Source: Rhodospirillum centenum SW (GTDB lineage: Bacteria; Pseudomonadota; Alphaproteobacteria; Azospirillales; Azospirillaceae). From it: a stretch of DNA of 64,000 bases. Where the stretch lies: the NCBI RefSeq assembly GCF_000016185.1, contig NC_011420.2, positions 3,139,001 to 3,203,000 on the forward strand. Reading direction: 5' to 3'. Made by a program: the position numbers and the translations under genes. Below the pieces are notes generated by a model. It made no database searches. It was not told the origin of the DNA and saw only the letters and a program-made list of their open reading frames with translations. Below, piece after piece: positions 41,678 to 53,127 of the stretch. Every line of letters starts with the position of its first letter. Within the stretch, counting starts at the first letter, position 1.

Positions 41678-42166
41678 CTAGCGCGGCTTCTTCTCCTCCG
41701 AGCGCTTGTAGACATAGATGCCGAGCACGCCGAGGCCGACCGACCAGATGGTGGTGAGGCTGGCCAGCGCGGCGACGGCGCCCGCGGCGGCGGGGGGATC
41801 GGCGATGGTGATCCAGGCGACGGACCCCATCTGCGCCCCCCAGGTCACGGCCATGATGTAGCCGAAGGTCGGGCGCATGCGGCGGACATAGGCGTCCTGC
41901 GAGGCGGCCTCGGCGCGCAGGCTGGCGTTGACCTCGCGCAGGGTGGTGCGGGCCTCGTCCGATTCCAGCTCGGCCATCCGCTCGACATGGCGGTTGGCCT
42001 CGGCCACCTGCTCGGGCGTGATGGCCCCGGCGCCGATCGAGGTGCCGACCTCGGTCAGCGCCTCGGCGGCGGCCCGGGCCGCGGGGTGGTCGATGCGGGC
42101 AAGGCCCTGGCCCGCCGCCTGGACGAGCAGGGGCAGGCCGAGTTTCGCAAGAAGGGCGGGGATCAT
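41678..42166 (-). CDS. Phage holin, 3-TM type
   Basis: A 162-residue membrane protein. The C-terminal half contains hydrophobic segments FGYIMAVTWGAQMGSVAWIT and AAGAVAALASLTTIWSVGLGVLGIYVY, and the N-terminus another weakly hydrophobic one. It matches the holin family first described for gene-transfer-agent release (PF11351-like). A charged KRSEEKKPR tail ends it. It would permeabilise the membrane so that the lysin encoded just upstream can act. Confidence 0.8.
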   Translation of the reverse strand: MIPALLAKLGLPLLVQAAGQGLARIDHPAARAAAEALTEVGTSIGAGAITPEQVAEANRHVERMAELESDEARTTLREVNASLRAEAASQDAYVRRMRPTFGYIMAVTWGAQMGSVAWITIADPPAAAGAVAALASLTTIWSVGLGVLGIYVYKRSEEKKPR

Positions 42167-42235
42167 GGGCGGACTCCGTCGGGGGCAGGGGGGGTGTGCA
42201 GGGGAGTGGGATCGGGGGCGCGGGTCAGGCCCGCG

Positions 42236-42742
42236 TCAGCCGATGTCGCGGTAGAAGAGGTGGCGGCCGATCTCCGCACACGGCGCCCGGCCGGCCGCCC
42301 AGGACGGCGTGATGCCGCCGTGGTGGTAGTGGGTGGCGCCGCCGGTGGGGTCGCCCAGCGTGCCGGCCACGGCGCGGCGGGCGATGCGCAGGGCGGCGGC
42401 GAAGGCCGGGTCCGCGGCCGTGACGGCCAGCAGCCGGGGCCGGTTCGGGTCGCCCTCGTTCCAGCAGGAGAACTGCCAGGGGGCGCGGCAGACCTCCGCC
42501 ACCGTGCGGCCCCACCAGCGCACGCGGCCGGCGCGGGCGGCGGCGACGCGGTTCATCACCACGGCGGCCACCGCCTCCATCCCGCGCACGGACTCGCCGC
42601 GCGCCTCCCCCCAGAGGGTGCGGGCCAGCACGTCCACCGCGTCGCCGCCGGGCGGCGGATCGGGCGGTTCGGGCATGAGACGGGGCCGGGCAGGGGCGCC
42701 GGCGGGGGTGCCGGCACCCGTGATCTCCGAGGGGCCGGTCAT
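42236..42742 (-). CDS. Cell-wall hydrolase, SleB-like endolysin
   Basis: A 168-residue hydrolase. After a Pro-rich start, the SleB-type domain reads LARTLWGEARGESVRGMEAVAAVVMNRV, with the catalytic Glu in WGEARGE, followed by CRAPWQFSCWNEGDP, AVAGTLGDPTGGATHYHHGG. It lies between the membrane/coiled-coil gene (overlapping ATGA) and the holin, forming a lysis cassette. Phage use is inferred from location; chromosomal homologues remodel cell wall. Confidence 0.88.
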   Translation of the reverse strand: MTGPSEITGAGTPAGAPARPRLMPEPPDPPPGGDAVDVLARTLWGEARGESVRGMEAVAAVVMNRVAAARAGRVRWWGRTVAEVCRAPWQFSCWNEGDPNRPRLLAVTAADPAFAAALRIARRAVAGTLGDPTGGATHYHHGGITPSWAAGRAPCAEIGRHLFYRDIG

Positions 42743-43077
42743 GCCGCACCCCCGGTCCCGCGGGCGGCGGTCCCGCGGGTGGCGGCCGCACGGGCGCCGT
42801 CCAGCTTCGCCTCGATGCGCAGCAGGTGGTCGGTCAGGCGCTGCTCCACCTCCCGCAGCGTGCCCAGGGAGGCGTAGGTTTTCGCCACCTCCAGCTTGTA
42901 GGCGGCGAGCGCCTCGCGCATCTGCACCGAGGTGGCGTCGATGCCGGCGCGGGCGCGCTCCAGGGCGGCGTCGGCATCCTTGCGGACCTTCAGGATCAGC
43001 CAGAACAGCCCGCCCAGCGCGGGCAGGTCGATGGCGGTGATCCACCAGGCCAGGTCCAGGCCCGTGGTGTCGGTCAT
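42739..43077 (-). CDS. Small phage membrane/coiled-coil protein
   Basis: 112 residues: one N-terminal transmembrane segment (LAWWITAIDLPALGGLFWLI) followed by a helical region with heptad-like pattern (ADAALERARAGIDATSVQMREA to RIEAKL). This shape suits a spanin-like or lysis-accessory protein. No specific family is recognised. It overlaps the lysin gene by four bases. Confidence 0.75.
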   Translation of the reverse strand: MTDTTGLDLAWWITAIDLPALGGLFWLILKVRKDADAALERARAGIDATSVQMREALAAYKLEVAKTYASLGTLREVEQRLTDHLLRIEAKLDGARAAATRGTAARGTGGAA

Positions 43078-43094
43078 GGTCGTGCGTCTCCGGA

Positions 43095-44630
43095 TCAGGG
43101 GTCGAAATCGGTGTCGGCCAGGAAGGGTTCGGTGCCGCCGCCCCAGCCGGGGGCGCGCGGCGGCGGCGGCAGGCGGGGCAGCCGGGCCGGGCTGGCGAGA
43201 AGCGCGCCGGCCGCGGCGTCCAGCCCGTCGTCGTGGCCGCCGCGCCCGTCCGGGCGCCAGTCGCGCATCTCCCGCACGAAGGGCGTCTCCCAGACGGAGC
43301 GGTGGGCCGCGAGCATGCCGGCGGCGAGGCGGGCGTCGAACGCCTCCAGGATGCGCAGGGCCTTGGGCCGGCGGCTGGTCTCCTCCAGCACGGCGCAGGC
43401 GAGCCGGCGCCGGGCCAGGGTCTGGCGCAGCAGCCCCGGCAGGAAGCCGCCGATGCCGTTCGTCTCCAGATGCAGGGTGGCGAGCTGGAGCGCCTCCACC
43501 AGGTCTGCCACCTGCCGGCACTGGTCCTGCGCCGGTTCCGTCCCCTCCGCGGCGCGGACATAGAGGACCCGGTGCAGGTAGGCGCGGCCGTCGGCATCGC
43601 CGAAGACGACGGCGACGACGCTGCCGTCGCCGCGCCCGCCACCGCCCTCTCCGCCCCCGCCGGCCCCGCTCTCCCCGCCGGCGGCGGGGCGGCCCAGGGC
43701 GGGGTCCCACCAGGCCCGCGCGGTCAGCAGCCGCCGGCCCTCCAGGGTCAGCACCGGGCGGCCCTGCACGCTGCGGATGTCGGGCTCGGCCGCGTAGGGT
43801 CGCAGCCGGTCGGGGTCGAGCCGGCCGGCGGTGGCGGGCCGCGGCGTCAGCAGCATCTGCGAGAGGAACTTGGCCGGGCCGGCGCGGCGGCGGATGCGCT
43901 CCACCACCTCCGGCCCGAACCGCTCGGGCCAGAGATGCAGGCGGGCGCCGTCCGGCCCCTCGCGGTAGACCGGCAGCTCCAGCCGGGCGTAACCGGCCAG
44001 GAACGGCTCCCGCTCGCCCAGCTCGGGCCGCGGCTCGCGGGCGTAGATCGAGTACCAGGTGTGCGGCGTGCCGATGTAGAGCGAGGTCCCGCCCGGCGCC
44101 AGGACGGAGGCGATCTCCCGCAGCCGGGTGCGCAGCTCCTCCCGCTTCGGGGCGGTGTCGCAGGTGTTCGGCACCTCCACGTCGTCGCAGACGACAAGGT
44201 CGGCGTGGCTGCCGGTGAAGTTGCCGCCCACCCCCTGCGCCGCCATGGAGGGGTCGCGGCCGACCAGGGGGCGTTGCAGGGTGAACGCCTCCGCCCCCCA
44301 CAGCTCCCGCTTCTCCGGCTTCAGCCCGGCGCAGAGCGGATGGCGCTCCACCACCCGCTTCACGGTGCGGACCATCTTCTTCGCCAGGGTCAGGTCCGCG
44401 GCCAGCACCAGGATGCGGCAGTCGGGATCGCGGGCCAGCCGCCAGGCGCAGTAGAGCCCGACGATGCTGGACTTGCCGCTGTCGCGGAAGGCCAGCAGCA
44501 GCAGCTCGCGCCGGCCGCGGGCCAGAGCGTCCTCCAGCCAGTCGGCCATCTCCAGATGCAGGTCGGGGGTGCCGCGGCCCTGGAGATGGTTCCAGAGCGC
44601 GAGGAACTCGGTGAAGCGGACGGGCGGCAT
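43095..44630 (-). CDS. Phage terminase large subunit
   Basis: A 511-residue DNA-packaging motor. The ATPase part has Walker A LAFRDSGKSS (about residue 47), Walker B LVVCDDVEVPN (about 148) and the coupling motif IGTPHTWYSIY. The nuclease part has acidic residues in VVAVVFGDADGRAYLHRV, the block LHLETNGIGGFLPGLLRQTL, and HDDGLDAAAGAL near the C-terminus. A Gly-rich insertion (about 325-345) separates the two halves. Length and order fit T7-like large terminases. Confidence 0.93.
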   Translation of the reverse strand: MPPVRFTEFLALWNHLQGRGTPDLHLEMADWLEDALARGRRELLLLAFRDSGKSSIVGLYCAWRLARDPDCRILVLAADLTLAKKMVRTVKRVVERHPLCAGLKPEKRELWGAEAFTLQRPLVGRDPSMAAQGVGGNFTGSHADLVVCDDVEVPNTCDTAPKREELRTRLREIASVLAPGGTSLYIGTPHTWYSIYAREPRPELGEREPFLAGYARLELPVYREGPDGARLHLWPERFGPEVVERIRRRAGPAKFLSQMLLTPRPATAGRLDPDRLRPYAAEPDIRSVQGRPVLTLEGRRLLTARAWWDPALGRPAAGGESGAGGGGEGGGGRGDGSVVAVVFGDADGRAYLHRVLYVRAAEGTEPAQDQCRQVADLVEALQLATLHLETNGIGGFLPGLLRQTLARRRLACAVLEETSRRPKALRILEAFDARLAAGMLAAHRSVWETPFVREMRDWRPDGRGGHDDGLDAAAGALLASPARLPRLPPPPRAPGWGGGTEPFLADTDFDP

Positions 44631-44644
44631 GGCTCTCCTGCGGG

Positions 44645-45166
44645 TCAGCTCGTGTCGGGCGGGTCCGGCCCGGCCGGATCCGGGGCGGGAGCGGTGGGCG
44701 CGGGCTCAGCGGGCTCTGCGGGGTCGGCGGGCAGGGGGCCGGCGCGGCGGGCGCGCCAGGCGGCGACCTCGGCGCGGGAGTCGGCCATCAGCCCGGCCAG
44801 CCCGCCGGGCTGCTCCGGGCCGCCCGCCGCCGGCGCCGGGGGGGCAGCGGGGGTGTCCGGCGGCGGGTCTTCCGGCGGGCCATCCGGTGATGGGCCGTCC
44901 GGTGATGGGGAATCCGGAAGGGGGACGGTCTCCGGGGCGACGCGCTGCGACAGCCGCACCAGCGCGTCCAGCAGCGCCACCCCGGCCTTGCCGGCGGCGC
45001 ACCAGTCCTTGAAGGCGCGGGCGTCGGGCATCCCGTCGTCCGCGTCCGCGGCCGGTCCGGCCTCGATGAAGGCGGCAACATGCCGGCAGCCCACCGGCAG
45101 CAGCCGGGCCAGGGCCGCCGGCAGCAGGCCGGGCGGCGGGAGATCGGGCGTCGGACGGTCGCGCAT
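44645..45166 (-). CDS. Small phage protein upstream of the large terminase
   Basis: 173 residues. The N-terminal half is moderately conserved-looking (RHVAAFIEAGPAADADDGMP, FKDWCAAGKAGVALLDALVRLS); the rest is Pro/Ala-rich low complexity. Its place directly before the terminase suggests a small terminase subunit, but no DNA-binding motif is visible, so this is position-based only. Confidence 0.55.
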   Translation of the reverse strand: MRDRPTPDLPPPGLLPAALARLLPVGCRHVAAFIEAGPAADADDGMPDARAFKDWCAAGKAGVALLDALVRLSQRVAPETVPLPDSPSPDGPSPDGPPEDPPPDTPAAPPAPAAGGPEQPGGLAGLMADSRAEVAAWRARRAGPLPADPAEPAEPAPTAPAPDPAGPDPPDTS

Positions 45167-45184
45167 GGCGGGGCTCCGGTCGGA

Positions 45185-47587
45185 TCAGGCGGAATGGCGG
45201 GACAGCAGGTGCCAGGCGGCGCCGTTGCAGACGGCCGTCAGCGCCGCGTGCTGCGCGGCCAGCGTCTGTGCCGCCCCGTCGGGTCCGCTCCCGCCGGAAC
45301 CGTCCCCGGCGGAACCGTCCCCGGCGGCGGTGACGCTGACGGGGTTGGGGCCGGGATCGGTCTTCTTGACGGAGACGACGGCGCCGGCATGGGCGGCGGC
45401 CGGGGCGGGCAGGCGCACCTCCACCGGGCCGGCGAAGGCGCTGACCAGGTAGATGTCCGCACCGAGGTCGGCCTCCAGCAGCCCCGCCGCCTCGTGGAAG
45501 CGCACGGCGGCGCGCGGCCGGGCGGTGCCGGTGACCAGCCATTCCGCCCCGTTGCTGAAGACGGTGACATGGTCGTAGCGCCGGCCCAGCAGCCAGGACC
45601 GCCCCTCCGGCCCGCCGCCGCCATCCGTCGTGACGGTGACGGGGGCGGTGCCGTCGTCGGACTTCTTCACCGTCAGCCAGCGGCCGGCGGCCTGGGGATC
45701 GCCGGGGGCGGGCAGGCGCACCTCCACCGCCCCGCCGGCCGTGCCGACCAGATGCAGCCGGCGTGTCGTGTCGGGCCGGTAGAGACCGGGTCCGTCATGG
45801 AACCAGGCGTTCTCCGGCAGCAGGTTGGAGCCGGTCAGCCACCAGGTGGCGCCGTTGGAGACCAGGGTGGCGACGTCGTAGCGGTTGGCCAGCACGACCT
45901 CCCGGTTGTCGGGGCCGGGGCCGCCATCCTCGGTGATGCGGACGGGGTTGGGGCTGGCGTCGGTCTTCTTCACGGTGACGACGCGGCCGTTCGCCGGGTC
46001 GGCCGCGGGCAGGCGGAACTCCACCGGCCCGCCGAAGGCGGAGACGAGGTAGGTGGTGGACCGCAGGTCCGGCTCCACCAGCCCGCCCGCCGCGGGTTCG
46101 ACATAGTCGGTGTCGAGCTGCAACCCCTCCAGCCGCAGGTCGGTGATCCAGGTCTTCTTCAGGAAGTTGCGCGTGGGATGGCCGGCATTCACGGCGGTGA
46201 AGGCGCGGGTCTCCGCCGGGTCCCAGATCGGCTGCCCGGCGGTGGCGCTGAACAGGTTGACGATGCTGGTGTCGCGGCTGCCGTTGTCGATCCGGACGCC
46301 GGGCAGCGCCCCCAGGCTCTCGGCGTAGAAGTTCACGATCAGGGTCTGGTCCGTGGCGGCCCCCAGGCGGAAGCACGCCTCCCCCGACGGGTGCAGGTTC
46401 GCCTCGCAGTCCACGAAGCTGTTGTTGAAGCGCGCCGCCGACAGGAAGAAGCCGCAGCCCTGGATCGGCGCGCCCAGGGAATAGACCCGCACGTCGTGGA
46501 ACTTGTTGGCGTTGGGCGTGTCGCCCGTGCTCTCCACCGTCAGCAGCACGCCGTGGAGCTGCTGCCGGGCGCAGAGCACGCGGGCGACGTGGTTCCAGTA
46601 GCAGGGCCGGTCGGCATCGGCATGGCCGTCCAGCACGAGGCCGATCAGCGTGTCCCAGACGGAGACGTTCTCCACCACGTTCTTCACGCACGGCCCGTCG
46701 CGGCCGTAGAGCTTGATCCCCGTGGCGCCGCCGACGATGCGCAGGTCGCGCAGGGCCGCGTAGCCCTCCACGATCTCCACGGTGTTGAAGGGGCTGTCGT
46801 AGCCGGGCACGGCGGCGGCGTCGAACGGTTCGGCCCGCGCCTGGATCACCGATCCCTCGCCGACGCCGGACAGGGTCTGGCCGTAGCGCAGCGTCAGGGT
46901 GCCGGAGATGCGGTAGGCCCCGGCCGGCAGGTGGACGGCCCGGTGCGCCGCCAGCGCGGCCCGGATGGCCGCGGTGTCGTCCGCGATGCCGTCGCCCACG
47001 GCGCCGTAGTCCTTGGCCGAGACGCTGTCGCGCAGCTTGTCGGGCAGGCTGCGGGCGACGGCGCCGGCCCCGGCCTGCACGGTGGCGGGCAGCGGCGCCG
47101 GCAGCCCGGCCGGGTCCAGCGCCACCGGGTTGCCCTCGGCGTCGAAGCCCAGGACGCGGCCGGCGCGGACCCGGCGGTCGGGCAGCAGGGCGCCCGCCGG
47201 CAGGTCGGTGCCGGCATAGCGCAGCATGCGCTCCTGGTCGGCGGCAAGCTGCTGGATCTGCGCCGTCAGCCGGTCGAACTGTTCGTTCAGGCTGCGCGCG
47301 GCCAGCGGCCCGCTCTCCTGGAAGTCGGTCAGCCGCTCCACCGCCAGCCGGCGCTCCAGCGTCACCAGCACGCCGTCGGCGGGCGGCACCGCGAAGGTCA
47401 CCGCCCCGCCGCCCGCGGCCCCGATCCCGGCCACGGCATAGCCCTGGTCCTGCGGGGCCGCGTCCAGGAAGACCTTCAGGTCGCCGGCGGCGAAGATCGG
47501 GAAGGCGAAGACGAAGCGGGTGGTCTGCCCGTCCGCCCGGTACTGGACGCGCGGGCTCACCGCGGGCACGGGGATGTGCTCGGTCAT
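45185..47587 (-). CDS. Phage tail spike/fibre with beta-helix
   Basis: An 800-residue adhesin. The N-terminal 150 residues resemble the virion-binding head of T7-like tail fibres (PRVQYRADGQTTRFVFAFPI to LNEQFDRLTAQIQQLAADQE). A pectate-lyase-type beta-helix follows: VSAKDYGAVGDGIADDTAAI, HLPAGAYRISGTLTLRYG and VIVNFYAESLGALPGVRI-like rungs. The C-terminal 300 residues contain three tandem domains of about 95 residues, each with a pattern of EVRLPAP / VVTVKKTD / PV-V-EDGG / NGA-W-LTG. These are likely receptor-binding or trimer-tip modules. Host range probably depends on this protein. Confidence 0.85.
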   Translation of the reverse strand: MTEHIPVPAVSPRVQYRADGQTTRFVFAFPIFAAGDLKVFLDAAPQDQGYAVAGIGAAGGGAVTFAVPPADGVLVTLERRLAVERLTDFQESGPLAARSLNEQFDRLTAQIQQLAADQERMLRYAGTDLPAGALLPDRRVRAGRVLGFDAEGNPVALDPAGLPAPLPATVQAGAGAVARSLPDKLRDSVSAKDYGAVGDGIADDTAAIRAALAAHRAVHLPAGAYRISGTLTLRYGQTLSGVGEGSVIQARAEPFDAAAVPGYDSPFNTVEIVEGYAALRDLRIVGGATGIKLYGRDGPCVKNVVENVSVWDTLIGLVLDGHADADRPCYWNHVARVLCARQQLHGVLLTVESTGDTPNANKFHDVRVYSLGAPIQGCGFFLSAARFNNSFVDCEANLHPSGEACFRLGAATDQTLIVNFYAESLGALPGVRIDNGSRDTSIVNLFSATAGQPIWDPAETRAFTAVNAGHPTRNFLKKTWITDLRLEGLQLDTDYVEPAAGGLVEPDLRSTTYLVSAFGGPVEFRLPAADPANGRVVTVKKTDASPNPVRITEDGGPGPDNREVVLANRYDVATLVSNGATWWLTGSNLLPENAWFHDGPGLYRPDTTRRLHLVGTAGGAVEVRLPAPGDPQAAGRWLTVKKSDDGTAPVTVTTDGGGGPEGRSWLLGRRYDHVTVFSNGAEWLVTGTARPRAAVRFHEAAGLLEADLGADIYLVSAFAGPVEVRLPAPAAAHAGAVVSVKKTDPGPNPVSVTAAGDGSAGDGSGGSGPDGAAQTLAAQHAALTAVCNGAAWHLLSRHSA

Positions 47588-47679
47588 GATGGCTCCAGGA
47601 TGTGCAGTGAGGTCTCGCGCTCCGCCCCTCTGTCAGGCCGGAGGGTGCCGGGTCCCGGACAGGGCGGACGGGTCCGGGA

Positions 47680-48315
47680 TCACGTCCCCCGCATCGCGCG
47701 GCGGCGTGCCTCGATCCAGTCGGGCAGGGTGGTTCGCAGGCGGTCCAGAACGGAATGGGTGAGGCGCTGGTCGGCCATCTTGTCGGCCGTCTCCTCCAGC
47801 GCCGGCGGGACGCGGTCCAGCAGCGCGGCGATCCGGTCCTGCACACGGTTGCCGCCCATCGCCAGCGCCGGGCCGAGCCGGCGCCCCTGGGCGGGATCGG
47901 CCCGCAGTGCCCGCAGCCGGGCGGCGATGTCCGCCTCGTCCAGCCAGTCCACCTCCAGGGGCCGGGGCTCGCGGATCGCTGCCAGACGGTCGGGGCGGAC
48001 GATCTGGACGGCACCGGCGCAGTCCTCCCCGACATGGCCGAGGAGGGCCAGGACGTTGCGCGGGGAGACGCCGAACCGCTGGCCCCAGCGCTGGAGCACC
48101 GCCTCGTTGTCCGGCAGCAGCCCCCAGAGGAAGTTGGCGACGGCCTCGCCCGCATGCTCCTCCCGGTCCCGGGGCAGCGACAGGGACAGGGCCGCGACGG
48201 GTTGCCCCCGGTCGTCCCCGTGCGGCTCCCGGTAGCGCAGGACGCAACGTCCCTTCCGGGACGACAGCTCGCCGATCTCCGTCCCGGCGAGTAGCACGCT
48301 CAGCGGCCCGTTCAC
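47680..48315 (-). CDS. Kinase-less HipA-like protein
   Basis: A 211-residue protein whose first 135 residues are a good HipA N-terminal region: GTEIGELSSRKGRCVLRY, LSLSLPRDREEHAGEAVANF, LWGLLPDNEAVLQRWGQRFG and LLGHVGEDCAGAVQIVRPDR. The kinase core that should follow (normally about 200-300 more residues with the ATP loop, the HxxN and DxN motifs) is missing. After RLRALRADPAQ the chain runs straight into a helical C-terminus like that of full HipA (VQDRIAALLDRVPPALEETA). The frame is open, so this is an in-frame internal loss. The start is a GTG overlapping the hipB stop. It resembles the regulatory HipS part of HipBST systems in covering the N-terminal subdomain. Confidence 0.8.
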   Translation of the reverse strand: MNGPLSVLLAGTEIGELSSRKGRCVLRYREPHGDDRGQPVAALSLSLPRDREEHAGEAVANFLWGLLPDNEAVLQRWGQRFGVSPRNVLALLGHVGEDCAGAVQIVRPDRLAAIREPRPLEVDWLDEADIAARLRALRADPAQGRRLGPALAMGGNRVQDRIAALLDRVPPALEETADKMADQRLTHSVLDRLRTTLPDWIEARRRAMRGT

Positions 48316-48617
48316 GGCGTCCTCCGGCGGGCGCGCTCAAGGACCGCGTCCAGGTCGATGTCCGCGGCTGCGGGCGGTGCGCCGTCGGGGGCGGAGTCCC
48401 CCTCCCCGGCCCCGGCGTCGAGCCGGAGGGCGAGGTCGAGCGCCGCCAGGGTCCGCAGTACCAGACCCAGTTCCGCCCGTGGCCGGCCCTGCTCCAGGCC
48501 GATCAGCCAGTCGCGGCTGACGCCGGCCTTCTCCGCCAGGGCCCGCTGGCTCAGGCCCAGGGCGCGGCGGCGGCGGCCGATCGCCGTGCCGAGGTCCTTC
48601 GGGGTCAGGACGCGCAT
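48312..48617 (-). CDS. hipB: HipB-type antitoxin regulator
   Basis: A 101-residue XRE-family helix-turn-helix protein: LGTAIGRRRRALGLSQRALAEKAGVSRDWLIGLEQGRPRAELGLVLRTL. A short flexible C-terminus follows. It precedes the HipA-like gene and overlaps it, as in hipBA operons. The five palindromes at 48678-48801, directly upstream, are its likely operators. HipB normally dimerises, represses the operon and binds HipA. Confidence 0.9.
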   Translation of the reverse strand: MRVLTPKDLGTAIGRRRRALGLSQRALAEKAGVSRDWLIGLEQGRPRAELGLVLRTLAALDLALRLDAGAGEGDSAPDGAPPAAADIDLDAVLERARRRTP

Positions 48618-48677
48618 GGTCGTCGCCTCCGGTCGGGGACGGTCGAGCGGTGTCGACGGTCGTCCGCATGGGAAAAT

Positions 48678-48801
48678 GTCGACGAGCGTCGACCTGGTGT
48701 CAATGTCGACGCTCGTCGACCACGTACCAATGTCGGCGTTCGCCGACGGCGTTCCAATGTCGGCATTCGCCGACGACGTACCAATGTCGGCATGCGCCGA
48801 C
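48678..48801 (-). promoter_or_regulatory. Five tandem palindromic operators upstream of hipB
   Basis: Five inverted repeats start at 48678, 48705, 48732, 48759 and 48786, exactly 27 bp apart. The first two have arms GTCGAC-N4-GTCGAC; the other three have GTCGGC-N4-GCCGAC. The change in the left arm is matched in the right arm, so dyad symmetry is kept. Linkers share CAATG and related bases. A degenerate sixth site lies at about 48652. They end 61 bp from the hipB start. Confidence 0.85.
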
Positions 48802-48817
48802 GGGAGATCTGTCCGCG

Positions 48818-49351
48818 TCAGGAATAGCCGCGGGCGAGGCGTTGCAGGCGTTGGCGTTCGGTCAGTTCGGACAGGTCCAGCAGGTTGCGCCGGTAGGCGG
48901 CCCGGGCCTCGTCGTCCAGGGCCTTCAGGCGCAGCGCGTCCAGGCTGCGGGCGGTGGCGTCCTCCTCCGCCGCCTCGCGCACGAGGCCCAGCAGGATCGC
49001 CTCGCCCGAGCCGTCGGCGGCGGAGATGCCCTGGCCGCCCAGCTTCGCCCGCTGCCGGCCCACGGCCCGGCGCAGCGAGCGCTGGCGCCGGGTTTCCGCG
49101 GCCTGCGCCTCCACGGCGATCTGCCGGGCGCGGCGTTCGGCGTCGGTGCGGCGGGTCTCCGCCTCCAGGTCCTGCGCGGCGCGGAGCTGCGACAGTTCCA
49201 CCGCCTGACGGTAGTCCAGCAGGTCGTCCTCGCGCCGGCGGCGCTCGTCGCCGTCGTCGTCGCCGCCGTCCAGACCCAGGGTGCGGGCCGCGGACTTCAC
49301 GGTCCGCACCGTGCCCAGGGTCGCCAGCACGGGCGTGGTCAGTCCGGCCAT
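48818..49351 (-). CDS. Phage internal virion protein, T7 gp14-like position
   Basis: 177 residues, mostly charged helix (DERRRREDDLLDYRQAVELS to AVGRQRAKLGGQGISAADGS). The GGQGISAADGSGEAILLGL segment is typical of small internal virion proteins of podoviruses infecting alphaproteobacteria. It follows the tail tube B gene with an ATGA overlap. The large internal virion genes normally next in order are absent; the hip operators begin 17 bp after its stop. Confidence 0.65.
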   Translation of the reverse strand: MAGLTTPVLATLGTVRTVKSAARTLGLDGGDDDGDERRRREDDLLDYRQAVELSQLRAAQDLEAETRRTDAERRARQIAVEAQAAETRRQRSLRRAVGRQRAKLGGQGISAADGSGEAILLGLVREAAEEDATARSLDALRLKALDDEARAAYRRNLLDLSELTERQRLQRLARGYS

Positions 49352-51267
49352 CAGTCGTTCACCTTCAGCTCAAGGGTTGCGGACAGCAGCGTGAAGGGCA
49401 GCGGGCGGTCCTCCTCGATCCGCCAGAGCGGCCGGGTGCGGTCGTGCACCCAGCCCAGCGCCGCCAGCCGGCGGTCGCCGGTGAAGGGCGCCGCCGGGCG
49501 GCTGGAGAGCGGCGCCTGATCCATCCGGCGCAGCGGCACCTCCACCATGCCGCGGCCGAGATCGGCCCGCAGCGCGGGGGTGGCGGCCACGCGGAAGGTC
49601 ACGGCCAGCGGGCGCAGGGCGCGGCCCTGCCCCTCCGGCGCCAGGGCGTTGGGCGGCAGCGGCCTCCACCCGGTGGGTTGTAGGGCAGGCCCGGCGGTGA
49701 CGATTCCCGGGCCGGCCGGTCCAGCCGCAGCCGCCTCGGCTTCCACCACCGCCGGCCCCGGCAGGCAGCCGTCCGCCACGATGGCGACGCGCCGGCCCTC
49801 CAGATGCGACAGGCCCGACCAGCGCGGCGTCGGCGGGTCGGCCAGGCCGGACAGCGCGCTGTCCAGGGCGAGGCCGTCCTCCCACTGCTCCAGCATCCAG
49901 CGGCCCTGCCGCTCCACCAGCCAGTGGACCTCGCCGCGCACGACGGCGAGGGAGCGGACGGCGCCGTCCGTCTCCAGCCGGGTCCAGCCGGTGACCTGCT
50001 CGGCCCGGTCCAGCGTCAGGGCGGCGACGCCGCCGTCCGCCTGCACCGCCAGCAGCAGCCGGCGGCCGGGGTCCACGTCCAGTTCCACCGGGGCGCGGCA
50101 GAGATGGCCGGCGGCCAGCGTCAGGTCGGTGGTGCTGTAGCTGCTCTCCAGGTCGGTCCAGAGGAACTCCCGCACCGCCCCGTCGCGGCCGGCGAACAGG
50201 GTGGCCCCGTCCACCTCCCGCGCCGGGATCTGCCGGCCGGGACCGCTGCCGACCCGGCTCTGCCGGTCCAGCCGCACCTCCTTCGGGGTCAGCGGCTCGC
50301 CGGTGACGGCCCATTCCGCCCCGGTGGTGAAGACCTGCAGGTGCCGGCCGGAGAAGACCTGCCGGATGGCGTTCACCTGGTCGGACAGGATGGCGAACTC
50401 GATCGCCTCGTCGTCCTCCCCCTCGCCCGGATCGAAGTCGAACAGGTCGCCCGAGCGCGACAGCCAGAGCCGGTTGGGCAGGTCGCGGCTGCCGCCGATC
50501 ACCAGCCGGTCCTGGTGGAAGCAGGCGCTGACCGGCCAGCCGCGCAGGGGGGAGAAGGCGGGCTCGTCCCAGTCGATGGAGGGCTCCGCGTCCGGCACAT
50601 CCTCCAGCAGGTCGATCTCCGCCAGGGTGGGGGAGCGCACGGCCACCACCAGCCCCTGGCGCCGGCGCAGCCGGAACGGCCGGCCGGCATGTGCGCCGTC
50701 GAACACCGGGGCGGAGGCGCGCACCCGGACCCGGCCGCGGGTGCCGGAGGGGGTGAGCGTCACCGCGGCGTCGGCGAAGCGGTGGAACGGAAGCCGCTGC
50801 AGCGCGCGACCGTCCGCCGTCTTTACCGTCGAGAAGCGCCACGCCTCGCAGCGCCAGCGCCGGTCGCCGCTGCGGACGATGCGGCGCGGCGGCACGTCGG
50901 GGTGGCAGACCAGCAGCACGTCGGCCGACTGGGTCCAGGCGAGCTGGGCGAGCTGCCCGGCGGTCCAGGGCGTCTCCAGCACCGCCTCGGTCGCGCCGTC
51001 GCGGAACACCTCCAGCCGCCGGTCGGTGAAGGCCAGCAGGTAGGCCTGCTCGGTGTCGAAGGCGAAGGCGGCCAGCCGGCCGGGGCCGGGCAGGGTGGCG
51101 AGATAGGCCGTGCCCGGCCGCCGCGTCACCCCGCCGGTCGGCAGGATCAGCACGTTGCGCAGGGCGAGCGCCCCCGTCTCGTAGCTGCGCAGGTCGCCGC
51201 GGCCCAGCAGGTCGGGCGACAGTTCGCCGCCGGTGAAGGCGGCCTTGACGCTGCGGAGACGGGTCAT
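49351..51267 (-). CDS. Phage tail tubular protein B-like
   Basis: A 638-residue virion protein. The N-terminus MTRLRSVKAAFTGGELSPDL and the segment LALRNVLILPTGGVTRRPGT are typical of T7 gp12-like nozzle proteins of podoviruses. Beta-propeller-like repeats follow (AFDTEQAYLLAFTDRRLEVF, FHQDRLVIGGSRDLPNRLWL, FTTGAEWAVTGEPLTPKEVR). The start at 51267 overlaps the tail tube A stop. The gene is intact. Confidence 0.82.
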   Translation of the reverse strand: MTRLRSVKAAFTGGELSPDLLGRGDLRSYETGALALRNVLILPTGGVTRRPGTAYLATLPGPGRLAAFAFDTEQAYLLAFTDRRLEVFRDGATEAVLETPWTAGQLAQLAWTQSADVLLVCHPDVPPRRIVRSGDRRWRCEAWRFSTVKTADGRALQRLPFHRFADAAVTLTPSGTRGRVRVRASAPVFDGAHAGRPFRLRRRQGLVVAVRSPTLAEIDLLEDVPDAEPSIDWDEPAFSPLRGWPVSACFHQDRLVIGGSRDLPNRLWLSRSGDLFDFDPGEGEDDEAIEFAILSDQVNAIRQVFSGRHLQVFTTGAEWAVTGEPLTPKEVRLDRQSRVGSGPGRQIPAREVDGATLFAGRDGAVREFLWTDLESSYSTTDLTLAAGHLCRAPVELDVDPGRRLLLAVQADGGVAALTLDRAEQVTGWTRLETDGAVRSLAVVRGEVHWLVERQGRWMLEQWEDGLALDSALSGLADPPTPRWSGLSHLEGRRVAIVADGCLPGPAVVEAEAAAAGPAGPGIVTAGPALQPTGWRPLPPNALAPEGQGRALRPLAVTFRVAATPALRADLGRGMVEVPLRRMDQAPLSSRPAAPFTGDRRLAALGWVHDRTRPLWRIEEDRPLPFTLLSATLELKVND

Positions 51268-51860
51268 GCCCCGCCCCCGCCCTGCCGGGCCTCGATCAGG
51301 GTGAAGTCCTCGAAGCGGTCCTGGCTGTCCTGCTGCGTGTCGATCAGGCGGGCGCGGCGGAATTCCGCGTCGGCCAGTCGCCACAGCATCTCCGCCCGGC
51401 TGGAATTCTCCGTCAGCGGCAGGCAGAACTCCGCCGCCAGCCGGGCGATCAGGGCCTGGTCGAAGAAGGGCGGGAAGCTCTCCTCGGCCGGGCGGTGCAG
51501 GTAGGTCAGGATCACGGCGTCCGCATCGGCCAGCAGCGTGCCGCCCTGGATGCGGTACTCCAGCCCCCGCATCCGCCCGCCGCGCCCGGCCGACAGCGCC
51601 CGCAGGAAGCCGTCGGGCAGGGCGAAGGCGTGCGCCGGCCCGGCCACGGCGGTGCCCTGGGGCGGGTCGGCCAGCCGGGCCAGCCCGGCATGCAGGGTGG
51701 CGAAGCTCCAGCCGTGGGCGGAGAGCAGCGCATCGCGCGTGGGGGCGTAGAGCGCCGCCGCCACCTCCGCCTCCGCCGTGCCGTCGGCGAAGCTGGCGAT
51801 GCCGGCGGCACCGATCTTCAGGAGCGCGCGGGCGCACAGGCCGATCGCGGTGAGGGCCAT
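51264..51860 (-). CDS. Phage tail tubular protein A-like
   Basis: 198 residues. MALTAIGLCARALLKIGAAG at the start and the later ARDALLSAHGWSFATLHAGL-like and LIARLAAEFCLPLTENSSRA segments match the T7 gp11-like gatekeeper of the tail. It overlaps the next gene by four bases. The ATG at 51858-51860 was chosen because the family starts there. Confidence 0.83.
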   Translation of the reverse strand: MALTAIGLCARALLKIGAAGIASFADGTAEAEVAAALYAPTRDALLSAHGWSFATLHAGLARLADPPQGTAVAGPAHAFALPDGFLRALSAGRGGRMRGLEYRIQGGTLLADADAVILTYLHRPAEESFPPFFDQALIARLAAEFCLPLTENSSRAEMLWRLADAEFRRARLIDTQQDSQDRFEDFTLIEARQGGGGA

Positions 51861-51949
51861 GGGGTAACTCCCGGAACGGAGGGCGAGGGGGAGGGGGAGG
51901 GGGAGGGGGAGGGAAGGCGGCGGCGCGGGTCCGGTCGGTCCGGGGCCGG

Positions 51950-52220
51950 TCAGTCCGTATCGCTGGCGCCGACCGGGGTCAGGTCGGACAGGTCCACGAT
52001 GCCGGCGGTGTTGCTGGCGACGACCAGGAGGCCGGCGGCCGGGGTGCCGTCGGTGTCGGTGTTCGCCAGCAGCATGTCGCCGACCCGCAGCATGTGGCCG
52101 GCGGCGTTGAAGTAGCCGCTGACGCGCACCTGGGTGTGCAGGTCGGCGGTGGTGTAGTGCCAGAGCGTGAAGCCGTTGAGCATAGGCCAGCACGCTCAGG
52201 TCCTTCGGCAGGAAGGCCAT
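51950..52220 (-). pseudogene. Small phage virion-associated gene with a frameshift
   Basis: From the ATG at 52220 the frame reads MAFLPKDLSVLAYA and then loses homology; one base later the other frame continues NGFTLWHYTTADLHTQV, GYFNAAGHMLRVGDMLLANT and DTDGTPAAGLLVVASNTAG to a stop at 51950. Related phages encode these as one protein of about 90 residues, from memory. A surplus T near 52180 (coding GCTCAAC for expected GCCAAC) explains the break. A short version could start at an ATG at 52183. Confidence 0.7.
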
Positions 52221-52308
52221 CGCGAGATCTCCGGGGATCGGGGGAAGAGGCGGGGTGGCAGAGGAAGCGATGAAGCGGGGAAGCGGGGGAGAGGGGCCGG
52301 GCGGCCCC

Positions 52309-53127
52309 TCACGCCTCCTTGCAGCGCAGGGTGACGACGCCCTTGGGGTCGATCAGGCAGGCGCCCTGGCTCATCATGTGGTTGACGAAGAAGGCGGCGC
52401 GGTCGCCGTGCCAGGTCACGTCGGTGGCCACGTCGGCGCCGGCGGCATGGCCCACGGCGGTGCGGTGGTACCAGTGGCAGAGCCGGACCCCGCCGGTCAG
52501 GGTCAGCCCGGAATGCGGCATCCAGAGCGTGCCCAGCCAACGCTTGGCCTGGGTGCCGCGCCAGGGCAGCTCGTCCGCGCCGACATAATCGGCGTCCGCG
52601 AATTCCGGCAGGGCCAGGAGCTGGCTCCACTGCTTCCAGCCGACGACGGCGGTGCGCTGGCCGTCGTCCGGCACGTCGGCCGTGCCCAGCATCTCGAAGG
52701 CGGCCAGCACCTTGTCGCGGGTCAGCCCGTCGGTGGCGGCCCCGGCCAGGTTGGCGGAGCGGTCCAGCTCGGCGATGATCAGCTCGTCGGTCTTGCGGCC
52801 CAGCGCATAGGCGCCGGCATTGGCGACGACGGCGCGCTCGTCGATGTTGACCTTCAGCTCGTCCAGCCGGTCCACCCAGTCGCCGGCGTAATAGTCGGCC
52901 AGCGCGCATTCGACATGGGAATGCTCCAGGTTCATCACCGGCACCTTGCCGTGCCGGGCCTTGGTGCTGGCGGCACCGCGGCCGACCACCTGGAACACGG
53001 TGGAGGCGCCCTGGACATCGGTCTTGTGGCGCACGGTGGCGCGCAGCTTCGAGCCCATGCGCTGGTAGGATTCGTGGACCTCGCGCTCGAACTGCTTGAT
53101 GAAGGCCTGGTCGATCGTCGTGGACAT
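52309..53127 (-). CDS. Phage major capsid protein
   Basis: 272 residues: MSTTIDQAFIKQFEREVHES at the start, then LRATVRHKTDVQGASTVFQV, DYYAGDWVDRLDELKVNIDE, RKTDELIIAELDRSA and a C-terminal half with AKRWLGTLWMPHSGLTLTGG and HMMSQGACLIDPKGVVTLRC. This matches the capsid family of several podoviruses without a separate protease. The upstream promoter (53344-53372) probably drives the whole block. No portal or scaffold gene precedes it. Confidence 0.85.
   Translation of the reverse strand: MSTTIDQAFIKQFEREVHESYQRMGSKLRATVRHKTDVQGASTVFQVVGRGAASTKARHGKVPVMNLEHSHVECALADYYAGDWVDRLDELKVNIDERAVVANAGAYALGRKTDELIIAELDRSANLAGAATDGLTRDKVLAAFEMLGTADVPDDGQRTAVVGWKQWSQLLALPEFADADYVGADELPWRGTQAKRWLGTLWMPHSGLTLTGGVRLCHWYHRTAVGHAAGADVATDVTWHGDRAAFFVNHMMSQGACLIDPKGVVTLRCKEA

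Follow-up and report, generated by a model that had tools for sequence, protein, structure and literature searches.

Tandem palindromes upstream of hipB in a Rhodospirillum centenum prophage remnant very likely form an enlarged HipB operator array beside a kinase-less hipA

Analysis of a 64,000-nucleotide stretch of the Rhodospirillum centenum SW genome (contig NC_011420.2, positions 3,139,001 to 3,203,000; here called the window) revealed a regular array of palindromes directly upstream of a hipB gene. The palindromes are very likely the tandem operators of the adjacent HipB, repressing hipB-hipA; the array probably arose from duplicated site-plus-spacer units, and the HipA partner has lost its kinase. 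The array is a longer example of a known operator type, with one or two extra copies.

Layout of the palindrome array

A palindrome scan confirmed the five palindromes that the sequence-only reading had described upstream of hipB. These are 16-bp perfect palindromes starting at 48678, 48705, 48732, 48759, and 48786 (span, 48678-48801), and their pitch is exactly 27 bp. The two arm types were found as described, GTCGAC/GTCGAC in two sites and GTCGGC/GCCGAC in three, as was the degenerate sixth site, an imperfect palindrome at 48652-48667 with 2 mismatches and a pitch of 26 bp, closest to hipB. The array occupies the intergenic interval 48618-48817, flanked by a gene for a 177-aa product (48818-49351) and by hipB (48312-48617), both on the minus strand. 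The candidate operators, with PWM percentiles relative to the relatives' sites, and hipB are as follows.

48785..48802, minus strand: operator site 1, farthest from hipB, CGTCGGCGCATGCCGACA; 3rd percentile
48758..48775, minus strand: operator site 2, CGTCGGCGAATGCCGACA; 11th percentile
48731..48748, minus strand: operator site 3, CGTCGGCGAACGCCGACA; 45th percentile
48704..48721, minus strand: operator site 4, GGTCGACGAGCGTCGACA; 8th percentile
48677..48694, minus strand: operator site 5, GGTCGACGCTCGTCGACA; 7th percentile
48651..48668, minus strand: degenerate sixth operator site, nearest hipB, 13/16 consensus matches, pitch 26; 1st percentile
48312..48617, minus strand: hipB, 101-aa Xre/HipB-type DNA-binding protein, recognition helix SRDW; HTH_31, TIGR03070

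The repeated unit is a 27-bp direct repeat that extends beyond the palindrome and includes much of the spacer. The outermost base pair of the sites is asymmetric: read toward hipB, the five sites start with C, C, C, G, and G in place of the family's T, and A is the last base of each. The window holds 67 palindromes with 6-nt arms and a 4-nt gap, and the longest equal-pitch run among them (pitch, 20-40) has five members. Dinucleotide shuffling of the window, done 100 times, gave a mean of 46 palindromes and 65 at most, and never an equal-pitch run of more than two. A whole-genome pattern search (4,355,543 bp) found the tandem pattern nowhere else. The 17-base core GTCGRCGNNCGYCGACA had no exact match in the genome outside the array; with one mismatch allowed, it had 13 matches elsewhere, compared with 6 for a reversed control pattern. 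Twelve places outside the window carry a core one mismatch away from the operator (e.g., G000:C1:2364918-2364934) and could be other HipB targets or chance matches. A coding origin of the repeat was also considered and dropped, as frames across it give Arg-rich, low-complexity peptides and a 62-aa minus-strand frame had no Pfam match.

Probable operators upstream of related hipB genes

The regions upstream of 94 hipB loci were scanned with the consensus TGTCGNCGWWCGNCGACA. The set comprised 72 and 13 loci from two profile-based searches and 9 added from other searches. One of them, L135, is a viral-collection record of the same prophage as the window; it was excluded from the relatives' counts, leaving 93 loci, and it stands in for the window in the family statistics, its six sites and spacers being letter-identical to those of the window. 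Sites matching at least 14 of 16 positions numbered 150 in 13.5 kb of upstream sequence and 1 in 235 kb of downstream sequence at the 93 related loci. Arrays of at least two sites, with 2-4 sites each, were present at 70 of these 93, a proportion that holds for relatives reached with the search profile and not for all hipB genes, because that profile (the HipB of the window plus ten relatives) had been picked partly for visibly similar upstream sites. Counted over all 94 loci, 71 had arrays (four sites in 30, three in 25, two in 15, and six in L135 alone), and 23 had none by the TGTCGNCGWWCGNCGACA consensus. The 155 intervals within arrays outside L135 included 63 of 26 bp and 77 of 27 bp, so that 140/155 fell at 26-27 bp.

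Both the motif and the pitch of the window array therefore recur upstream of related hipB genes, in locus records labelled Alphaproteobacteria, Gammaproteobacteria, Acidobacteria, and Planctomycetota, and this conservation strongly supports the identification of the palindromes as HipB operators. The sequence-only reading had also put the number of operators in known HipB operons at up to four, which agrees with E. coli (PMC3376134) and with the relatives' 70 arrays, none of which has more than four. Its proposal that neighboring dimers sit on alternating faces of the DNA stands as arithmetic (27/10.5 = 2.57 turns), but a pitch of 26-27 bp is the rule in the family and no local peculiarity.

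Several features of the sample bear on these counts. Eight relatives were left out of the profile (L015, L040, L041, L042, L045, L050, L051, and L052), at least four of which (L015, L050, L051, and L052) bear other motifs as judged by eye. L013 and L014 entered the set under the names L111 and L121, and L015-L020 are outside it. L110 and L128, with almost no upstream sequence, were counted as misses, and L049 was counted as array-less through an offset error, although its duplicate L108, read correctly, has an array. As some loci had been fetched twice (e.g., L044 = L066), site statistics were computed on 67 distinct arrays (215 sites, 195 distinct). Sites entered these statistics with a consensus score of at least 11/16 and a neighbor at 24-30 bp; this selection inflates conservation at the scored columns, and half-site position 6 is unscored.

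The array at L108 has three sites at a 24-bp pitch, off the 26-27 bp rule. Other operator codes are seen at more distant hipB genes, e.g., at L052 (genome G444, outside the 94), where three identical TTTCCCGATCGGGAAA palindromes lie upstream at an exact 50-bp pitch.

When 385 genomes of the class were searched by pattern alone for a tandem pair of these palindromes, 3 gave matches, one of them the window's own. The second match, L055 (genome G451), lies between ftsA- and ftsZ-like genes (by eye) at a 30-bp pitch, and the third, G116, had hits near the starts of two contigs; neither was taken as a HipB array. In L055, positions 1499-1606 hold four copies of a 30-bp unit with palindromes of the GTCGGC N4 GCCGAC type, the last copy imperfect.

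Comparison with known HipB operators

The array resembles O1-O4 of E. coli K-12 hipBA, which are likewise tandem 18-bp palindromes at a regular pitch upstream of an adjoining hipB. The E. coli operators are four TATCCN8GGATA sites with pitches of 28, 39, and 28 bp, and by eye a -10-like TATAAT lies between O2 and O1, its last base in O1. The two systems differ in the half-site (TATCC in E. coli, TGTCGNCG here), in the number of sites (four in E. coli, five or six here), and in hipA, which is full-length in E. coli (annotated 1590854-1592176) and truncated here. For hipBA1 and hipBA2 of Caulobacter crescentus, inverted repeats are described whose intervals would suit the E. coli complex (PMC7029023), with three operators each (PMC8545095); these systems, with three sites and active kinases, were compared by their published descriptions and not by their letters. 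Legionella hipBST is reported to have three inverted repeats, evenly spaced and with arms of 6 nt, to which HipB binds, but with 53-bp gaps and a split toxin (PMC10653801). The asymmetric O2 and O3 of Legionella are also described as HipB bound in that report, which indicates that symmetry is not needed for binding (PMC10653801). None of the papers listed in a search of largely non-subscription literature on hipBA and operator number contained "hipBA" together with "five operator."

On the model of E. coli HipB, a HipB dimer would bind each 18-bp site, and a filled array would cover the region upstream of hipB, so that the hipB-hipA operon would be repressed. Binding along the array may be cooperative, as reported for E. 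coli HipB at its own operators (PMC3376134).

Promoter geometry

In a first tally, run with no control and with duplicates kept, the best promoter-like match had its -10 box between the two hipB-nearest sites in 42 of 71 arrays, and 32 of those 42 had TTGTCN followed by a 17-base gap. The relatives share a fixed register in which the -35 box coincides with the start of the second operator (beginning one base before it), the gap is 17 bases, and a -10-like hexamer lies in the last spacer. At this fixed place 37 of 58 distinct arrays had a -10-like hexamer; in 500 spacer shuffles the number averaged 4.9 and never went above 13. This is the outcome to expect from an array that covers the promoter. 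Of 62 arrays, 47 have a last interval of 27 bp, and the other intervals are mostly 26 bp (47/83). This suggests that promoter geometry sets the last interval and that the assembly of neighboring HipB complexes sets the others.

In the window, the family register reads AGGTCG and CCCATG, which is no promoter. The best promoter-like match in the array begins within the spacer that separates site 4 from site 5:

48675..48703, minus strand: weak candidate promoter TTGACA-17-GACATT, matching at 6+3 of 12

This candidate was absent from the output of the standard promoter scan. A promoter/terminator scan of 48550-48950 found none, and the scan expects no promoter in shuffles of the region either.

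The hipA gene has lost its kinase core

The gene downstream of hipB encodes a shortened HipA:

47680..48315, minus strand: truncated hipA, 211 aa; HipA N-domain (1-145) fused in frame to the C-terminal tail

hipB lies upstream of hipA, and the two genes overlap by 4 bp (48312-48315). The truncated HipA matches the HipA N-terminal domain alone (Couple_hipA, 1.5e-21; a second model, 3.9e-23), and a domain-profile search found no match to a kinase domain. Comparison with 20 full-length relatives of 425-493 aa showed 47-53% identity over residues 1-145 among the 12 matches listed, and the last 63 residues showed a weak alignment with the C-terminal part, starting near residue 368 (E value of 0.001 at best in this set of 20). 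In alignment with full-length HipA, about 220 residues of the kinase core are missing and the frame is intact. Of the features of a type II HipBA module, a HipB with an HTH whose gene overlaps hipA is present and the Ser/Thr kinase core is absent; as the core is lost, the module cannot serve as a toxin-antitoxin pair of the kinase type. Either it is in decay, or it survives in the form of HipB and an N-domain remnant.

Neither a search of plasmids nor one of the genome that contains the window revealed a second HipA with this in-frame deletion. The plasmid search matched 145 records, none covering 80% of the query, and a whole-genome search with this query, which lacks the kinase core, returned only the self-match.

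The predicted structure of the truncated HipA is a modest model (mean pLDDT, 70.7; pTM, 0.47), and Foldseek comparison with full-length HipA gave query TM-scores of 0.30-0.37, which is weak support. The model weakly matches HipS/HipA-N structures 7ab3 and 8ezr along the N-domain, and 7czo at an E value of 0.5 only. N-domain proteins of this kind, HipS and HipA-N, are described in tripartite systems (PMC9438503; PMC10653801), where HipS is reported to neutralize the HipT kinase by contact (PMC10653801). HipS and HipA-N stand alone and have about 100 aa, whereas the N-domain here is fused to the HipA C-terminal tail and has no adjoining HipT. A tripartite HipBST module, with a HipT kinase gene next to those of HipB and HipS, was rejected, the next gene downstream being the tail fibre/spike-like gene; a HipT elsewhere in the genome would be missed by the whole-genome search with the coreless query.

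Prophage setting and the possibility of a functionless relic

The module lies in a prophage remnant, so called because of its short span:

41678..53127 (edges approximate), minus strand: prophage remnant around the module, by PHROGs matches
52309-53127, minus strand: major head protein (PHROGs)
~51267-51803, minus strand: tail tubular protein (PHROGs)
49351-51285, minus strand: tail protein (PHROGs)
48818-49351, minus strand: 177-aa gene between the array and the tail gene; no PHROGs match and no Pfam match above cut-off
45185-47587, minus strand: tail fibre/spike-like gene (PHROGs)
44645-45166, minus strand: gene without a PHROGs match
43095-44630, minus strand: large terminase (PHROGs)
41678-42166, minus strand: holin-like gene (PHROGs)

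Outside this run are host metabolic genes, for ThiG and an FAD oxidoreductase at one end and for methylmalonyl-CoA mutase at the other. PHROGs gave no match for two genes that separate the mutase gene from that of the head protein. A search of 50,697 phage records with HipB found no match. L135 is 99.87% identical to the window over 8.3 kb and has the same array.

The array could be a relic with no function now, left over from a defunct hipBA module of a degraded prophage. This explanation, which overlaps the operator explanation with respect to the origin of the sites, is possible, if somewhat doubtful. The lost kinase core, the lack of a recognizable family-type promoter, the degeneration of the gene-proximal site, and the partial state of the prophage all speak for it. 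However, both frames are open with a coding-like base composition (GC3 of 0.92 in hipB and in truncated hipA), and five sites are still perfect palindromes. The retention of the array in L135 also argues against a relic, although L135 may be a near-identical strain and so carry little information on age. Kinase loss need not end repression, since HipB alone is reported to repress its own promoter in E. coli HipBST (PMC10627512).

The HipB recognition helix

HipB of the window matches HTH_31 (1.2e-8) and the NCBIfam model TIGR03070 (Y4mF-type antitoxin; 9.5e-16), the latter at 57.5 bits and thus under the curated cut-off of 71.65. It is 58% identical to the HipB of L043 and 57% identical to that of L044. 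Its recognition helix, SRDW, contains a D that occurs in none of 67 relatives, 59 of which have Q at that residue.

Among 67 HipB proteins, the residue before RxW (G or S) was associated with the base at operator position 5 (G or A). With G before RxW, half-site position 5 was G in 127 and A in 6 cases (23 loci); with S, it was A in 127 and G in 97 (42 loci). These are raw counts that ignore kinship, and the association, which counts in favor of the operator explanation, is a possible HipB specificity code.

Several observations stand against the operator explanation favored here. The window sites rank low by the family PWM (percentiles 3, 11, 45, 8, 7, and 1, from site 1 to the degenerate site) and miss the outer T; the promoter of the family register is absent; HipB carries D in its helix; and symmetry in five of five sites is rare. 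A shift in HipB specificity, in which the D and the loss of the outer T co-evolved and the symmetric sites suit the changed protein, would be compatible with that explanation, and we consider it rather unlikely. It draws on the D found in 0/67 relatives, on the outer T, which is present in 172 of 195 relatives' sites and missing on the upstream side from all five window sites, and on the association of recognition-helix residue and operator base in the family. Yet this is a single lineage, in which coincidence is possible, the right-hand outer A is kept in all five sites, and the family association was computed with kinship ignored.

A further reading is improbable: that the kinase was shed and that a HipB of changed specificity, with the HipA N-domain remnant and an enlarged symmetric array, now forms a repressor system acting as a prophage transcription block or as a HipS-like antidote. 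The array does lie inside a same-strand cluster of phage late genes, with tail genes on one side and the fibre, terminase, and holin-like genes on the other.

Probable tandem duplication and the matched arm changes

The spacers TTGGTACGT, TTGGAACGC, and again TTGGTACGT in the window are nearly identical, and the window alone among 54 distinct arrays has two spacers identical over 8 bases. Its mean spacer identity of 0.625 is tied with that of five other arrays (median, 0.375), and as it has more spacer pairs than the tied arrays, an identical pair is easier to find in it; spacer identity consequently supports tandem duplication but does not prove it. Probably, the array expanded as a 27-bp unit, site plus spacer, was duplicated in tandem. 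Under such duplication, the two arm classes would be two groups of copies that differ at a base which HipB probably does not read, and the classes are most simply seen as its outcome. Duplication reduces, without abolishing, the surprise of five symmetric sites out of five: symmetric 6-bp arms occur in 22 of the 195 distinct sites of relatives, and symmetry throughout an array in one of their 67 arrays (L097, with three sites). Five such sites would be striking if they were independent of each other.

The two arm classes differ at half-site position 6, which is N in the consensus and the least informative column of the relatives' PWM (0.13-0.14 bits). Left position 6 in the 195 distinct relatives' sites was G in 52, A in 20, C in 73, and T in 50. 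Complementary pairs at this position numbered 61/195, compared with 51.3 expected by column permutation (s.d., 6.0; p, 0.06). When right halves were shuffled within the 67 arrays, 78.0 were expected (s.d., 5.2) and 68/215 observed, a symmetry that 98% of the shuffles reached. Of 163 within-array site pairs differing at left position 6, both sites were symmetric in 12. Position 6 thus varies in the family without keeping symmetry.

At position 5, the excess of complementary pairs under column permutation (95 versus 75.4) disappeared within arrays (108 versus 110.4), as expected if lineages differ. Position 1 was the sole position with a small within-array symmetry excess (154 versus 150.0, reached in 3% of shuffles), and this is the pair that is broken in the five window sites.

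The sequence-only reading had proposed that selection kept symmetry while the half-site changed, marking two recognition classes for one HipB or a second regulator. It had named free, asymmetric variation of the repeats among relatives as an outcome that would speak against this, and for position 6 that is what was found: the changed base falls in the least conserved column and shows no paired change in relatives. Selected symmetry at position 6, marking two recognition classes read by one HipB or by a second regulator, is therefore very improbable: all five window sites are symmetric there, in two types, and complementary pairs slightly exceed expectation across relatives, but the position holds 0.13 bits and is less symmetric within arrays than in shuffles, both sites are symmetric in 12 of the 163 differing within-array pairs, and the near-identical spacers make the window's sites non-independent.

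Significance

The hipB genes in records from the four labelled groups have an operator code in common, TGTCGNCGWWCGNCGACA with a pitch of 26-27 bp, and in most relatives with this code a promoter is built into the last two sites. The array also advises caution, as matched arm changes across a few tandem sites may reflect duplication and not selection. If the kinase-less repressor reading were true, the role of the module would be a transcriptional block or an antidote to foreign HipA kinases and not that of an addiction module. With its HipB very likely acting on the palindromes as its operators, the module would be a naturally occurring example of HipB and its operators outlasting the activity of the toxin.
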